Source: Thermosynechococcus sp. NK55a
GTDB lineage: Bacteria; Cyanobacteriota; Cyanobacteriia; Thermosynechococcales; Thermosynechococcaceae
DNA length: 64,000 nucleotides
Reading direction: 5' to 3'
NCBI RefSeq assembly: GCF_000505665.1
Contig: NC_023033.1
Coordinates: forward strand, 744,001-808,000
The notes below the pieces were generated by a model, which did no database searches, had not been told where the DNA came from, and saw only the letters and a list, made by a program, of their open reading frames with translations. How positions within the stretch are numbered: position 1 is the stretch's first letter; every line of letters begins with the position of its first letter. Made by a program: the position numbers and the translations under genes. Positions 3,070-15,573 of the stretch are shown here, in pieces.

Positions 3070-4514
3070 AGGGCGATCGCCTCAGTGAGGGGAGAGACAC
3101 TGAATTGTTCCTGATCCGCCATGACAGACGGAATCAGTTGATTGAGGTTGCCAGCCCCAAGGAAGATGACCAAGTCGCCCGGCTGCAGCAGATGCGCCAA
3201 GCGAGTTTGTACCGCTTCAAAGGTGGGGCAGTAATCCACTGAAGCATGATACTGACGGGCACAGGTGGCAACATCGGCACCACTAATGGTGCCGGGATTG
3301 GGTTCGCCGGCACTATAGATATCCGTGAAGATCACGTGATCCGCGGCGCTGAAGCACTGGCCAAAGGCCTCGAGAAAGATTTGGGTACGGCTATAGCGGT
3401 GGGGTTGAAACACCGCCACGATCCGTTGCCAAGGGGCTTGAGTACCCACTTGGAGGCGGGCTGCCTCTAGGGTAGCCATAATTTCACTGGGATGGTGGGC
3501 ATAGTCATCAATGAAGCGAATTCCATTCACCTGTCCCCGTTCTTCAAAGCGGCGGCGGGCACCGCGAAACTCTAAAAGAGCAGCAGCAATGGTGGCAAAG
3601 TCAATGCCGAGATACCGTCCCACTGCAATCACCGCTAGGGCATTTTGCAGGTTGTGGGCACCCAAAACATTCAGTTGCAAAATTCCAAGGGAGGTGCCCC
3701 GCTCCCAAATCCGTGCCGTCGTCCCCTCAGAGGTGTATTGAATATGATCCACACAGTAGTCCACCCCTGCTTGCCGTTGCAGACTATAGGTCAACAGGCG
3801 CGGATGATGCAGGCGATCGCGGATATTTGGACAATCGGCACAGGCAATCACAATGTCTGCTTGAGTAGCAAACTGCTGAAACGTGGCCACCACCTCTTCA
3901 AGGGAATTGTAGTGATCGGGGTGGTCAAGTTCAATATTAGTAATGACGCCAATATGGGGATGGAATTTGCGCAGGGAGCCATCAGACTCATCAGCTTCAG
4001 CCACAAGGTAAGGACTTTGACCCACACGGGCGTTGCCCTGCCATGCCGCCACTTCCCCCCCAACAATAATTGTTGGATCTAGCCCAGCCTGTAACAGCAA
4101 ATAGGCAATCATACTGCTGGTGGTTGTCTTACCGTGGGTACCGGCAACGGCAATACTTTGGCTGCGGTGCATCAGTGCCGCCAGTACATCGGAACGGTGA
4201 AAGATTGGACAGCCTAAGTGTTGAGCCGCTTGATATTCAGGGTTATCGCTGCGAATGGCGGTGGAGCAAATGACCTGAGGGAGTGGGGTGAAGGGATACG
4301 TTTCAAAGTTAGCAGCACTCTGGCCAATAAAAATCCGCACACCTAACTCAGCCAGTTGCTCGGTCAAACGATTGGGACGCAAATCGGATCCAGACACCCT
4401 AAAGCCCTTTTTGGCCAGAATGTAGGCAAGGGCTGACATCCCAATACCGCCAATGCCAATGAAGTGGAATGGACGTCCGCTAAACTCCATCACTGGCCGA
4501 TTTGCCACAAGCAA
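3066..4514 (-). CDS. murC: UDP-N-acetylmuramate--L-alanine ligase
   Basis: A 482-residue Mur ligase that adds L-Ala to UDP-MurNAc using ATP. Visible are the N-terminal Rossmann segment [13 protein letters not shown] (about residues 18-30), the ATP P-loop GTHGKT at 125-130, ADESDGSL and [10 protein letters not shown] in the central domain, and DDYAHHPSE in the C-terminal domain. A second Met at residue 9 is an alternative start. It is the first gene of a murC-murB-glycosyltransferase run on the minus strand, and its promoter must lie in the divergent gap with the Ycf66-like gene. Confidence 0.95.
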
Positions 4515-4873: not shown

Positions 4874-5953
4874 ATGCTGACGAACTTGCTAGCTTGGAGT
4901 ATGGCGATCGCCAGTTTAGGCTTGTATCTGTTGGGCTTCTTTCTGCCGGAACTGTACCGTAGGTTTGATCTGGTGGCCAGTGGCGCGGGATTATTCTTTG
5001 CCTTGACCCTGTGGATCTATGGCGATCGCATTGGCGGTGGCTTGCTCCTAGGAATGACAGCTGCAGTGGCTTTAATCCTTTGGTTTGGCGGGCAGACCCT
5101 CAGCTATCGCTGGCAACTGACCCACCCCGGCGATCGCACCGATACCCAAAAAGCCCAAGCCCTTTGGCAAAAAGTCCAGTCTCTGCTGCCCGAAGGTACC
5201 TTTGCGAAAATCAGTGAGCCACTGAAAGGCCTGGTGAGTCGCTTGGGCAGGGGCTTCCGGAAGCAGCCCGATCGCCCCCAGGCTGCCGTGGATACTCCGC
5301 CACCGCCGATGGATACTGGCAACATCAAAGCAGATCTGTGGACAGCAAGCACCCCCACTACCGTTGCTGAACAACCCACTCCAGCCACTGCGGCAGCTGC
5401 CGCAGTCCCAGCAGAATCTGCGGAAGCTGAACCAACGGCCAGCCCAACTGCAGACACACCGGCTAATCACGAAGGGGCCGAAACTATCGCCCCAGAAGAG
5501 TCAAGTGTTGAAACGCTACAGCCGCCAACTGCTAGTACCCCAGAAGAGCCAGCACCAGCAACAATTACTGCTTCAGAAGCAGCGGTGGCCCCCTCGGAAG
5601 AGCCAGCCCCTCCTGAAAAAGGGGTTGAGGCTCCAGAAGCCACAGTGACCGCCGCAGCACCAGAAGAACCCGCATCTCCTGAAACAGTTGTCAATGCTCC
5701 AGAACCCACAGCAACCCCTAAGGCAGGGGCAGAGCCGCCTTTAGTCTCTGAAGCTGCTGCCGATGCTCAACCCACAGAAACGATGCCCCCAGCACCGCAA
5801 TCGCGCACCTCTGCCGCCGATCTCCTAGGGGATATTCCTGAAAATAGTGATGTTGAGGATGCTGAGGACGAGGCAATGGCAGAGGGGATAACCATTGAAA
5901 ATCCAGAACCTACTGAGGACAGTGACTGGCCGCCCCCCGAAGCCCGTCTGTAA
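4874..5953 (+). CDS. Ycf66-like membrane protein with long acidic Pro/Ala-rich tail
   Basis: 359 residues. The first ~80 residues have three hydrophobic segments (about 3-22, 33-48, 53-73) with LGLYLLGFFLPELYRRFD, resembling the Ycf66 family of cyanobacteria and plastids, whose function is unknown. The rest is low complexity: from about residue 125 it is rich in Ala, Pro, Glu and Thr with recurring EEPA units, so probably disordered. The protein is likely anchored in a membrane with an extended tail. It diverges from murC and precedes the candidate replication origin. The family call rests only on the N-terminal part; the tail gives no functional clue. Confidence 0.6.
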   Translation: MLTNLLAWSMAIASLGLYLLGFFLPELYRRFDLVASGAGLFFALTLWIYGDRIGGGLLLGMTAAVALILWFGGQTLSYRWQLTHPGDRTDTQKAQALWQKVQSLLPEGTFAKISEPLKGLVSRLGRGFRKQPDRPQAAVDTPPPPMDTGNIKADLWTASTPTTVAEQPTPATAAAAAVPAESAEAEPTASPTADTPANHEGAETIAPEESSVETLQPPTASTPEEPAPATITASEAAVAPSEEPAPPEKGVEAPEATVTAAAPEEPASPETVVNAPEPTATPKAGAEPPLVSEAAADAQPTETMPPAPQSRTSAADLLGDIPENSDVEDAEDEAMAEGITIENPEPTEDSDWPPPEARL

Positions 5954-6491
5954 CATCTCACTCCAGCGGGTACAGGGCAGGACGAATCGCCGCAAAAGTT
6001 CATAAAGTCAGGAATTCATAACTTTTGCCACTTTTATTTTCTCTGAAGCAAAGCTTAATAGAATCTTAATTTTCCCCTAACTTTCCCCAAAAATGCCCCA
6101 ATTTTCCCAAGGTTTTCCACAGATGGGGGTAAAGTTTTCCACAGGCCTTTGCGCTGTGATTAGGGTTCAAGACATTTCTGGGGATAACTGCCGCTGGCGC
6201 CTTGGGGAAAACGTGAGGAGCGCCAAAAGTCTGGAAATGCCCATTCTGTCGTCGATTGTGATCGCCAAGATGGGTGAAAACAAGGATTGACAGCCCCTAG
6301 GATAACCCAGACAATGGAGTTCCACCGATAGAGATTCACTTGCTCTGAAACCTTGGGAGTGTAGGGCTAAATCCCGCTCTGAGTCAGCGGTTTGGGGATT
6401 TGGTCAGAACTTTTATGGGAGTTTTCCACAGGTTTACCCAGGGCGAGCTGATTGTGCCTGCAATTTTGTTTTTATTGAGGTAACTGACGGT
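5954..6491. other. Candidate replication origin (DnaA-box cluster)
   Basis: A 538-base gene-free stretch. The octamer-plus-one TTTTCCACA, the DnaA box form used by cyanobacteria, occurs exactly at 6113-6121, 6135-6143 and 6422-6430. A one-mismatch copy on the other strand lies at 6203-6211, and several near-copies (TTTTCCCAA, TTTCCCC runs) at 6070-6110. An AT-rich stretch at about 5999-6070 sits directly left of the boxes, as expected for an unwinding element. No gene product of the short frames here looks real. No dnaA or dnaN lies in the window, so this is a candidate; a DnaA-controlled promoter for the next gene is the main alternative. Confidence 0.55.
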
Positions 6492-6695
6492 ATGAACGCG
6501 CAAGCCACGATTAGTATTCTTGCCGAGATTCCAGAGGAGCTACACGAAACCCTGAAATACTACCTCGAGCGGCATCCCGATTGGGATCAGGATCGCGTAT
6601 TTGTGGCCGCACTGTCACTCTTTTTGCTGCAAAATGGAGAATGCGATCGCCGCACGGCACGGGTCTATCTCGACTCGTTGTTTAAGCGATCCTAA
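6492..6695 (+). CDS. DUF2811 family small protein
   Basis: 67 residues with the pattern SILAEIPEELHETLKYYLE, then HPDWDQDRVFVAALSLFLLQNG and a C-terminal helix, typical of the cyanobacterial DUF2811 family. Function is unknown; it is small, acidic and probably helical, with no membrane segment. It starts with ATG 11 bases after a GAGG-like site at 6477-6480. Its neighbours are the DnaA-box region upstream and the protoporphyrinogen oxidase gene 24 bases downstream, with which it may share a transcript. Confidence 0.85.
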   Translation: MNAQATISILAEIPEELHETLKYYLERHPDWDQDRVFVAALSLFLLQNGECDRRTARVYLDSLFKRS

Positions 6696-6719
6696 ACACT
6701 TTGGAGGGTAGCAAAACGG

Positions 6720-8123
6720 GTGATGGAGGTAGATGTCGCAATTGTTGGGGGTGGTCTCAGTGGCCTGAGTGTTGCTTGGCGGTTGCAGCAGAGCGCCCCG
6801 CAGTACAGTGGGGTTCTTTTAGAGGCTAGCGATCGCCTGGGGGGGAATATCACGACCCAAGGGGCGGAGGGTTTTGTCTGGGAACTGGGTCCCAATAGCT
6901 TTGCACCCACCCCTGCCCTCCTACAACTCATTGCTGAGGTGGGCTTGCACTCAGAGCTAATTCGGGGCGATCGCCACCTACCGCGCTACATCTACTGGCG
7001 GGGGGAACTCTACCCCCTCGAACCCACCCGTCCCCTTGCTTTGGCCACCTCAAATTTACTCAGCCCTTGGGGAAAAGTGCGGGCAGCCCTTGGTGCCTTG
7101 GGGTTTGTGCCCCCCTATCTGGGCAGTGGGGATGAGTCGGTTAATTCATTTTTCCGTCGCCATTTGGGGCAAGAGGTGGCTGAACGACTGGTGGCCCCCT
7201 TTGTCTCTGGGGTTTACGCCGGTGATCCGCAACAATTGAGTGCCGCTGCTGCTTTTCGTCGTATTGCCCAACTGGAAAAACTAGGGGGTGGGCTCATTGC
7301 CGGCGCCCTGCGCCTGCGGCGCCAACAACCTCCTAAACCAAGGCCACCTGCAGAGGTGCAAATGCGACCAGGGGAACTGGGCTCCTTTAAGGAAGGCTTG
7401 GCTGCTCTGCCGCGGGCGATCGCCCAACAATTGAAGGCACCGGTTCACCTGCAAACCCCCGTTGAAGCAATCACCCCAGAACCCAATGGTGGCTATCTGC
7501 TGCGCAGTGGTGAGCAAACGTGGCAGGCCCGCAGTGTGGTCTTGGCAACGCCTGCCTATCAAACCGCGGCGTTGGTAGCGCCCTTTCAGCCAGCGATCGC
7601 CCGTGTTTTGGCTGCCATCCCCTATCCCACCGTGGCCTGTGTGGTCTTGGCCTACCCCGCGGGACTGGGACGCAGTGTACGCCCCGGATTTGGCGTACTG
7701 ATTCCTCGTGGCCAGGGCATCCGTACCCTTGGCACCATTTGGTCGTCCTGTCTTTTTCCCCAACGCACCCCCGCCGGCTGGCAAGTCTTTACAAGTTTTA
7801 TTGGCGGTGCCACGGATCCTGATTTGGCTAGCCTTAGGGAAGAAGCCATTGTCCAGCAAGTGCAGCAGGATTTGACCCGCCTCCTTGATTTACCCGCCGC
7901 CAAGGCACGATTACTCGGTATGAAAGTTTGGCGACGGGCGATTCCCCAATATCTTGTGGGCTACCCTCAGCAGTGGCAGCAGGTGACCCATGCCCTCAGC
8001 CAAACCCCTGGGCTTTTCCTGTGTAGTAACTATGCGGAGGGGGTGGCCTTGGGCGATCGCGTCGAACATGGCAATCGAACCGCTGCTGCTGTTGCTGCCT
8101 ACCTTTCAGGAGGTCAATCCTAG
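6720..8123 (+). CDS. hemY: Protoporphyrinogen oxidase, HemY type
   Basis: A 467-residue FAD-dependent oxidase converting protoporphyrinogen IX to protoporphyrin IX, the last common step of heme and chlorophyll synthesis. The N-terminal dinucleotide-binding motif VDVAIVGGGLSGLSVAW is followed by LLEASDRLGG and ELGPNSF, and the FAD C-terminal motif SNYAEGVALGDRVEHG is present near the end. This is the oxygen-dependent HemY (plant PPO) type, not HemG or HemJ. GTG at 6720 is preceded by GGAGGG at 6703-6708; ATG at 6723 is the alternative start. It is followed after 2 bases by the HicB-like gene. Confidence 0.93.
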   Translation: MMEVDVAIVGGGLSGLSVAWRLQQSAPQYSGVLLEASDRLGGNITTQGAEGFVWELGPNSFAPTPALLQLIAEVGLHSELIRGDRHLPRYIYWRGELYPLEPTRPLALATSNLLSPWGKVRAALGALGFVPPYLGSGDESVNSFFRRHLGQEVAERLVAPFVSGVYAGDPQQLSAAAAFRRIAQLEKLGGGLIAGALRLRRQQPPKPRPPAEVQMRPGELGSFKEGLAALPRAIAQQLKAPVHLQTPVEAITPEPNGGYLLRSGEQTWQARSVVLATPAYQTAALVAPFQPAIARVLAAIPYPTVACVVLAYPAGLGRSVRPGFGVLIPRGQGIRTLGTIWSSCLFPQRTPAGWQVFTSFIGGATDPDLASLREEAIVQQVQQDLTRLLDLPAAKARLLGMKVWRRAIPQYLVGYPQQWQQVTHALSQTPGLFLCSNYAEGVALGDRVEHGNRTAAAVAAYLSGGQS

Positions 8124-13875: not shown

Positions 13876-15573
13876 CTATAGGAGTCGGCCAGAGGTGGAA
13901 AACGCCTGCACCGCAGCACAAATAAACTCCTCAAGGGAGCGCACTCCCGCCTGATCCTCAAACACGTTTGGGAGATTGTTTTGGATTTTGGCGCGAATCC
14001 ACTGGCGATAGTCAGCATTTTGACCCAGTTCGATCGCTTTTTGAACATAAGCAGACGCATCTGGGGCAATTAACTCGGGTATCCCCAACAGCGTCAGAAT
14101 AGCAGCTGTATGCCGCCCCCGCATAAAGCGCCCCGGTGTCGTCACCATCGGTACTTGGGCATAGTACAGCGCTTCTAGGGTTGAATTGCCCCCTGACCAT
14201 TCTAAACTGTCTAAGAAAATATCCAGACAGTGCAACACTGAGGTGAAGCCATAGAGGTTTAAGGGGCGAGAGAAAAAGCAGTACTCCCTATAGTCAAGAT
14301 TTTTGGCAGCAAAGGCCCGTCCTAGGCGCTGTTCAAACCGTTGGCGGCTCTTTTTAGTCATAAAGTGGGTAATAAAGACAAATTGGCAATTTTCCACAGC
14401 TGCGGCAATTTCTGGATAGACATAGTCAAACTGTGGCAGATACTTGAAGACACTCTGGAGGCAGCCGTAGATAACCGCATCACTTTTGAGGCCAAATTCC
14501 TCGCGGGTAATGGGCGATCGCGAGTCTGGCGGCATAGGACTAAAGGCAATCCCCAAGTTTTTTAGCCTGATGAGTTTTTCAGCGTAATACTTTTCGCCAT
14601 CGGCTGGTTCCATCAGCTCACTACTGAGGAAATAATCAATTGTGGGCAGGCCAGAGGTGTCGGGATGCCCCCAAGACATACATTGAATAGGGGCCAATCT
14701 TAAAGCGGCAATCTGAATCACTTCTAAATCCATCCCCAGTTCGGGAAAAATCACTAAATGCAATTGATCAGCGCGGATCTCCTCAAACCATTCTTGAGGG
14801 GATTTGCTGCCCATGACAAAACGATGACAGTAGGTTTTTGCTTGCTCCGTGCAGCGATCGCTAAAATCCCTCACATAGTAACCGTACATCTGAAACTTTT
14901 CTCGATCGAGATGTTTGAGCCAGCCATGGAGCATCAGTTTCCAAACCGTATGCTCAAAAAAGTGACCGGAGACGAACCCAATCCGCAGTGGCTCATTGGC
15001 CTTAAGGGCTGGCATCTGTGGCCGTTCCTGGGCAGATGGAATAACACTCATCATGACTTCATGGACCATCCGGCCGTATTTTCGTTGCAGATCGCGGGTT
15101 TCATCCCCCTGATAGGGCAGTAAAAATGTCCCCAGCATCCCCAACCACTGATACAGATATTTCTTCTGATCCAAAGGGAAGCTTTGAAACCGTTGATAGA
15201 AATCGGATATCGATTCCCTAATTTTTTGGCGACATTCATTTAGCTCTTCTACATCTTTGTAAACGTAGAGGAGATAACTTAGAGATTTGAGAAAATCAAT
15301 GCCAATTTGCCAGTCGGGTCTGAGTTCAATGGCTCTTTCGTAGGCCCTAAGGCACTGTTGCAAATCGCTATCAGCACCACTGAGCAGTGCCAAACGATAC
15401 CAAGCTTCTGCTAGGTTAGGATCTATTGCTAGGGCATGATTGAGAGCGGAGATGGCTGCTTGATGGTTTTTGTACTTCCATTGATTCAGCGCCAGTTTTT
15501 GCCATCCCTGGACAAAGGCAGGATGGGTTTTTTGCGCAGCAGTTTGTTGAATAAATTCCTCGATACACCCCAT
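13876..15573 (-). CDS. TPR protein with O-GlcNAc-transferase-like (GT41) domain
   Basis: 565 residues. TPR units occupy about 20-100 (AISALNHALAIDPNLAEAWYRL, then an LRPDWQ-ended unit). From about residue 190 the protein matches the SPINDLY/OGT glycosyltransferase fold: LRIGFVSGHFFEHTV, LHLVIFPELGMD, APIQCMSWGHPDTSG and the UDP-sugar region SLEWSGGNSTLEAL. Cyanobacterial relatives are O-linked glycosyltransferases acting on proteins or surface structures; the acceptor is unknown. It is one of three glycosyltransferases in the first 18 kb. It is transcribed alone on the minus strand. Confidence 0.8.
   Translation of the reverse strand: MGCIEEFIQQTAAQKTHPAFVQGWQKLALNQWKYKNHQAAISALNHALAIDPNLAEAWYRLALLSGADSDLQQCLRAYERAIELRPDWQIGIDFLKSLSYLLYVYKDVEELNECRQKIRESISDFYQRFQSFPLDQKKYLYQWLGMLGTFLLPYQGDETRDLQRKYGRMVHEVMMSVIPSAQERPQMPALKANEPLRIGFVSGHFFEHTVWKLMLHGWLKHLDREKFQMYGYYVRDFSDRCTEQAKTYCHRFVMGSKSPQEWFEEIRADQLHLVIFPELGMDLEVIQIAALRLAPIQCMSWGHPDTSGLPTIDYFLSSELMEPADGEKYYAEKLIRLKNLGIAFSPMPPDSRSPITREEFGLKSDAVIYGCLQSVFKYLPQFDYVYPEIAAAVENCQFVFITHFMTKKSRQRFEQRLGRAFAAKNLDYREYCFFSRPLNLYGFTSVLHCLDIFLDSLEWSGGNSTLEALYYAQVPMVTTPGRFMRGRHTAAILTLLGIPELIAPDASAYVQKAIELGQNADYRQWIRAKIQNNLPNVFEDQAGVRSLEEFICAAVQAFSTSGRLL

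Follow-up and report, generated by a model that had tools for sequence, protein, structure and literature searches.

A conserved, phased DnaA-box array as the likely DnaA-read control region of the DUF2811 gene in cyanobacteria

The 538-bp gene-free gap upstream of the DUF2811 gene of Thermosynechococcus sp. NK55a is, in our estimate with good probability, the control region of that gene and read by DnaA; it is very probably not the chromosomal replication origin. The gap lies in the window that we analysed, a stretch of 64,000 bp (positions 744001-808000 of a 2,520,064-bp genome on a single contig), and runs from the end of one open reading frame at 5953 of the window to the start of the next at 6492. 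An earlier, sequence-only reading of the window had proposed the gap as a candidate oriC or, as a second idea, as a DnaA-regulated promoter of DUF2811. The comparison of genomes described here strongly supports the second idea. It brings together the architecture of a box array that is conserved class-wide and linked to DUF2811, a box type that follows the oriC-type box in one genome, and the joint loss of DUF2811 and dnaA. From these features, all of them read from sequence, we infer that DnaA binds at the array.

The elements that had been described in the gap were recovered. Three exact copies of TTTTCCACA lie on the + strand at 6113-6121, 6135-6143 and 6422-6430, a single-mismatch inverted copy (TTTTCCCCA) occupies 6203-6211 on the - strand, and the stretch at 5999-6070, upstream of the array, is AT-rich, with a GC content of 0.278; only 0.24% of the 72-bp stretches of the window are as low. 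One further exact box is found in the window, at 14390. The whole genome holds 43 exact boxes (17 + 26), against 6 + 9 copies of the reversed control word, and the gap, with 3 boxes in 318 bp, is the second-densest exact-box cluster of the chromosome. When 36 boxes (the genome total minus the 7 of the denser cluster) were placed uniformly in a simulation, a triple within 309 bp arose in 0.035% of 20,000 trials.

The three boxes are exact in each of the 11 genomes of the genus, and 27/27 of their alignment columns are invariant across these genomes, as compared with 200/464 of the remaining columns of the gap. Several other invariant elements had not been listed by the earlier reading. Near-boxes TTTTCCCCT (6070-6078), CTTTCCCCA (6081-6089) and TTTTCCCAA (6102-6110) precede the first exact box on the + strand at a pitch of 10-11 bp, and the first two of them are invariant in 11/11 genomes. 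The first exact box sits inside an invariant run, GTTTTCCACAG; the second, 22 bp past the first, is the last box of the upstream array and is followed after 44 bp by an inverted variant box, TTATCCCCA, at 6179-6187 (- strand), which belongs to the invariant TGGGGATAAC (11/11). A promoter-like element, TTGACA-17 bp-GACAAT, at 6287-6315 (+ strand) was likewise absent from the list. Besides the boxes, the invariant runs in the gap are CTTAATTTTCCCCT, ACTTTCCCCA, TGGGGATAAC, AGGATTGACAG and AATGGAGTTCCAC, of which AGGATTGACAG (11/11) and AATGGAGTTCCAC belong to or abut the promoter-like element. By eye, the AT-rich stretch is partly conserved in the genus alignment, and the inverted TTTTCCCCA is seen in 9/11 genomes, being missing in G008 and G001. 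A small open reading frame at 6093-6290 was discarded on inspection by eye, since single-base gaps fall inside it in the alignment of the genus, and an Rfam search of 5900-6800, up to E 5, gave no RNA match.

The combination of DnaA boxes with an AT-rich stretch is what speaks for the gap as the chromosomal origin, or as a second active origin. We rejected oriC at the gap because a denser, conserved DnaA-box cluster sits elsewhere, an observation that the sequence-only reading had itself named as decisive against its proposal. This cluster, at genome positions 1642067-1642276 (L012:10067-10276), is the densest of the chromosome, with 7 exact boxes in 210 bp, and is 892 kb away from the gap. 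Its boxes lie in both orientations; beyond them comes a stretch rich in AT, CTACTACTA...TAGTAGTAG, that includes an inverted repeat. It has a homologue in 11/11 genus genomes, with 7-8 exact boxes in 10 of them and 4 in G002, and is the probable true oriC of the genome. What is more, G117, G039, G113 and G104 have a box cluster on the dnaA or dnaN side and the DUF2811 array elsewhere. An origin function of the gap, sole or additional, is thus extremely unlikely. The GC skew of 20 sampled stretches and the window ranged from -0.035 to +0.038 and had no clear switch; GC skew is irregular in most cyanobacteria, according to the part of PMC7198777 used here. It had also been argued that the missing dnaN would make the location unusual. 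This does not hold, as sections of PMC4674748 describe a putative oriC of T. elongatus BP-1, with 12 boxes, that is flanked by genes of unknown function. Neither the gap nor the denser cluster is near dnaA (25-1332) or dnaN (1855387), which fits the BP-1 setting in those sections. The same sections bear out TTTTCCACA as the box form of cyanobacterial oriCs, and the gap shares this sequence with the origins of S. elongatus, Anabaena and Cyanothece. It differs from them in that it has fewer exact boxes, in a single orientation, and is not at dnaN, and in that a denser cluster exists elsewhere in the genome.

The association of boxes with DUF2811 extends far beyond the genus. Our sample of named loci consists of the best 80 of 245 DUF2811 relatives, the closest of which are from Thermosynechococcus, with 99-100% identity. 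Among the 76 named loci with at least 750 bp of upstream sequence, 73 have at least one exact box there and 68 have at least two. The 4 loci with less upstream sequence are outside the 76 and inside the density figures, which are 188 boxes in 58.2 kb upstream of the gene and 17 in 538.6 kb of flank, a density about 100 times higher. The boxed loci range from Acaryochloris, Leptolyngbya and Pseudanabaena through to a Gloeobacterales genome. Within the order, the best DUF2811 copy is preceded by at least one exact box in 29/29 genomes, and the class sample has 98 boxes in 57.8 kb upstream of DUF2811 versus 5 in 143.8 kb elsewhere. Exact TTTTCCACA was found upstream of a DUF2811 copy in 51 of the 56 class genomes that bear dnaA, and TTATCCACA in one more. 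No exact box lies upstream of the gene in named loci L110, L149 and L154, nor in genus g16 (G042, G095, G099 and G111, all with dnaA), where only TTTTCCCCA-type sites are present. Because the named and class samples overlap partly (three pairs of contigs agree in length, at 695233, 93975 and 73234), we also give non-redundant counts, based on 123 of 142 loci for the TTGACA distances and on 125 distinct loci for the array pitch.

The genes upstream of the array change from locus to locus. In the tblastn search murB, murC and ycf66 were near DUF2811 in 3 of the 80 named loci (flanks are incomplete for some of the 80), and the nearest upstream open reading frame, determined for 71 loci, is on the same strand in 39 and on the opposite strand in 32. 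The boxes appear to be tied to DUF2811, not to these changing genes, and the gap is probably an old cyanobacterial control region.

The array has a recurrent layout. With the 125 distinct loci aligned on the last direct box, matches of at least 7/9 recur at -65/-64, -54, -43, -33 and -22/-21, and an additional match of this quality lies at -11 in 15% of the loci. The pitch is about one DNA turn (10-11 bp), and the exact boxes are mostly 21-22 bp apart. An inverted box-like site follows at +44 in 38% of these loci or at +45 in 29%, against a background of 1.4%; the 44 bp between the last upstream box, 6135, and the inverted site, 6179, of the window are the same spacing. The boxes are also conserved in a preferred relation to the predicted promoter: in 57 of the 101 non-redundant loci having both elements TTGACA lies 180-184 bp past the last box, where uniform distances would give 1.5 of 110 box-TTGACA pairs, and in the other 44 it lies elsewhere. 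The control word ACAGTT was at 180-184 bp in 0/21 cases. The other box-TTGACA distances include 152 bp (Thermosynechococcus), 161-163, 172-176 and 193-197 bp, again about one turn apart. The distance from the phased TTGACA to the start of the DUF2811 domain varies from 61 to 425 bp, and the array is therefore positioned with respect to the promoter-like element rather than the start codon. A promoter score of 10-11 of 12 was reached by 60/142 loci and by 4/142 shuffled ones, the other 82 loci being within the bulk of the shuffles, and the preferred TTGACA distance is better evidence for a promoter than this score. We regard TTGACA-17-GACAAT as the putative, predicted promoter of DUF2811. The third exact box (6422-6430), which is invariant in 11/11 genus genomes, would then be in the DUF2811 leader; an exact box at most 100 bp from the DUF2811 match was found in 7 of the 76 named loci, 3 of them from Thermosynechococcus.

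An ordered array with an inverted box could also be mainly a site of DnaA titration or nucleotide switching, like datA or DARS, that lies beside DUF2811 by chance. There is a second kind of array, with 3 boxes at 20-22 bp, in at least 14 of 67 genomes, and no gene is common to all of its locations; free-standing arrays may therefore exist. However, the array discussed here stays with DUF2811 while its upstream neighbours change, it is phased to TTGACA, and DUF2811 is mostly missing where dnaA is missing, which makes this alternative unlikely. The array resembles E. coli datA, DARS1 and DARS2 in being a DnaA-box cluster outside oriC, and differs from them in that, across the class, it is tied to a single gene and to an element that looks like a promoter.

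The second array, a candidate free-standing DnaA site, consists of three TTTTCCACA at spacings of 20-22 bp. It was found in L226-L238, near position 4000 of each locus, and in L239; in L226-L228 it is flanked by convergent genes, guaA and one for cation efflux. A triplet of boxes at 21-bp spacing is also present on the second contig of G127 (G127:C2:18150-18200), a genome with no dnaA. A further pair of exact boxes, in opposite orientation and 247 bp apart, lies at L014:9388-9643 (genome 863388-863643), and the genes near it are, by eye, recJ-like and porin-like.

The likely reader of the array upstream of DUF2811 is DnaA, and the distribution of the two genes is consistent with this. The dnaA search covered 66 class genomes outside Thermosynechococcus, 58 with and 8 without a DUF2811 match, with dnaA called above the family cut-off and DUF2811 above the Pfam cut-off. 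DUF2811 is present in 56/56 genomes with dnaA. In the ten without dnaA, it is missing from 8, has two stops in G165 and is intact in G073. The co-occurrence gives a Fisher p of 2.7e-10, a value that ignores kinship; the ten genomes fall into six groups by family and genus labels, and a dnaA-bearing congener is in the sample for three of the six (those of G167, G165 and G073). The weakest DUF2811 match among genomes with dnaA is that of G123, at 29.6 bits against a cut-off of 26.6. That its gene is a true DUF2811 counterpart is supported by the presence of the same array upstream, with direct boxes, either near or exact, at -305, -283, -262 and -241 and an inverted one 44 bp on, at -197. A profile search was also run on 16 genomes. 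Of the eight scored as having neither dnaA nor DUF2811, six had matches at E 0.01-0.95, which were not accepted as DUF2811, and two had none; the profile (A2) includes the sequences of G123, G073, G061, G104 and G161, and E-values there are not independent. A further 65 genomes without a DUF2811 match were taken as outside the class, the listing being ordered by kinship, and among the matches listed one outside the class reached E <=0.001, below the cut-off. Some of the genomes that lack dnaA may be those of reduced symbionts, in which co-loss could be general decay. In the sampled genomes, DUF2811 is kept together with DnaA and, in all but one of those without dnaA, is missing or broken.

The box type offers a second line of evidence for DnaA, from one genome. 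The cluster just upstream of dnaN in G104, presumably its oriC, has 9 TTATCCACA and no TTTTCCACA. The DUF2811 array of G104 likewise has TTATCCACA at 80133 and 80154 (21 bp apart) and inverted at 80198 (44 bp on), with no TTTTCCACA; in this one genome, the array boxes follow the box type of the cluster at dnaN. Loss of boxes after loss of dnaA was also seen in one genome, G073, which has an intact DUF2811 and zero exact boxes, against three in its dnaA-bearing congener G139; one exact box does remain in G165, which lacks dnaA and in which DUF2811 is a pseudogene. The boxes might instead be operators of another factor, for example of DUF2811 itself in an autoregulatory loop, as the protein may be a small DNA-binding one. 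This is very unlikely, since the motif equals the cyanobacterial oriC box in the sections of PMC4674748 cited above, in G104 the array and the dnaN-side cluster have both changed to TTATCCACA, and G073, which keeps DUF2811 without dnaA, has no exact copy left.

The gene at 6492-6695 (+ strand) encodes a protein of 67 aa that belongs to PF10929, with 101.8 bits against a cut-off of 26.6 (Pfam E 2.4e-29). No paper in the literature collection searched names 'DUF2811' or 'PF10929'. A structural model built from 33 sequences (pLDDT 81), which replaced a 7-sequence model (pLDDT 70), has an extended segment at residues 1-14 and helices at 15-27, 33-47 and 53-64. Foldseek with this model returned 0/60 matches at E <=0.001. 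A second look at its 144 best chains, none of them significant in Foldseek itself, gave Z values of 3.4-4.4 for the best eight, which include HicB, YiiF, NikR, Arc, AmrZ, ORF56 and ParD2; we take these seven of the eight to be ribbon-helix-helix (RHH) proteins. In the model, DUF2811 shares a predicted extended N terminus and two helices with RHH copy-control and antitoxin proteins such as ORF56, NikR, Arc and ParD2. It differs from them in the Z values just given, in an extra C-terminal helix and in that no RHH family was matched by DUF2811 in a Pfam sequence search. The model suggests that DUF2811 is possibly RHH-like, and DNA binding is a reasonable guess.

We propose that DnaA, perhaps in its ATP form, would assemble into a filament that spans the inverted site as well as the phased direct boxes; the sites here are the near-boxes from 6070, the exact boxes at 6113 and 6135 and the inverted box at 6179. 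Because the distance to TTGACA is preferred and helically phased, the target of this complex would be RNA polymerase at TTGACA, which lies 152 bp past the last upstream box here, and DUF2811 output would be tied to active DnaA. The location of the array far upstream of the -35 suggests that DnaA activates rather than represses, and the third box, in the leader in Thermosynechococcus, could add repression. DUF2811, probably a small DNA-binding protein, may in turn exert feedback on copy number or on initiation by DnaA. As DUF2811 is mostly gone where DnaA is gone, it probably functions in the pathway of DnaA itself, and our favoured guess is that it holds back initiation in polyploid cells. In its fullest form, the proposal is that DUF2811 has gone unrecognised as a partner of DnaA throughout the class: a small protein that binds DNA, is switched by DnaA via the phased array, restrains or times initiation in polyploid cells, and is lost as useless once a lineage gives up DnaA. 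This is possible and is put forward tentatively. In S. elongatus, as stated in the portion of PMC6478999 drawn on here, DnaA binds oriC in a photosynthesis-dependent manner, and the number of chromosomes replicating at once is limited by control of DnaA activity; a DnaA-driven gene would therefore report this state.

DnaA boxes upstream of a gene are also a feature of the E. coli DnaA regulon. DnaA acts as a transcription regulator, and E. coli DnaA prefers box pairs 2-3 bp apart, according to an excerpt of PMC11317965. In contrast to that regulon, the array here is long, with a 10-11 bp pitch and an inverted box 44-45 bp on, the promoter-like element is commonly 180-184 bp away, and the target is an uncharacterised family. 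Some cyanobacteria keep dnaA though they replicate without needing it; dnaA is reported to be dispensable in Synechocystis PCC 6803, Nostoc PCC 7120 and Synechococcus PCC 7002 (PMC7198777). The relevant part of PMC7198777 calls the function of DnaA in such species unclear and reports that dnaA disruption left growth of three species unaffected under optimal conditions. Any function of DnaA and DUF2811 together is therefore non-essential in those species. With a conserved DnaA-box array before a single gene family, the question of what DnaA does there gains a concrete target, and the joint disappearance of dnaA and DUF2811 hints that a part of replication control in cyanobacteria may have been missed.

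Two observations concern the DUF2811 loci themselves. Directly after DUF2811 the window has a gene of the flavin amine-oxidase family (6720-8123; PPOX-like by eye). As a relative of it was found in 19/80 named DUF2811 loci, the two genes may be co-transcribed in some lineages. In family f19, each of five small-genome members has 2-3 DUF2811 copies, for example L173, L200 and L201 (G132), and some of the copies have an exact inverted box 44 bp past the direct one.
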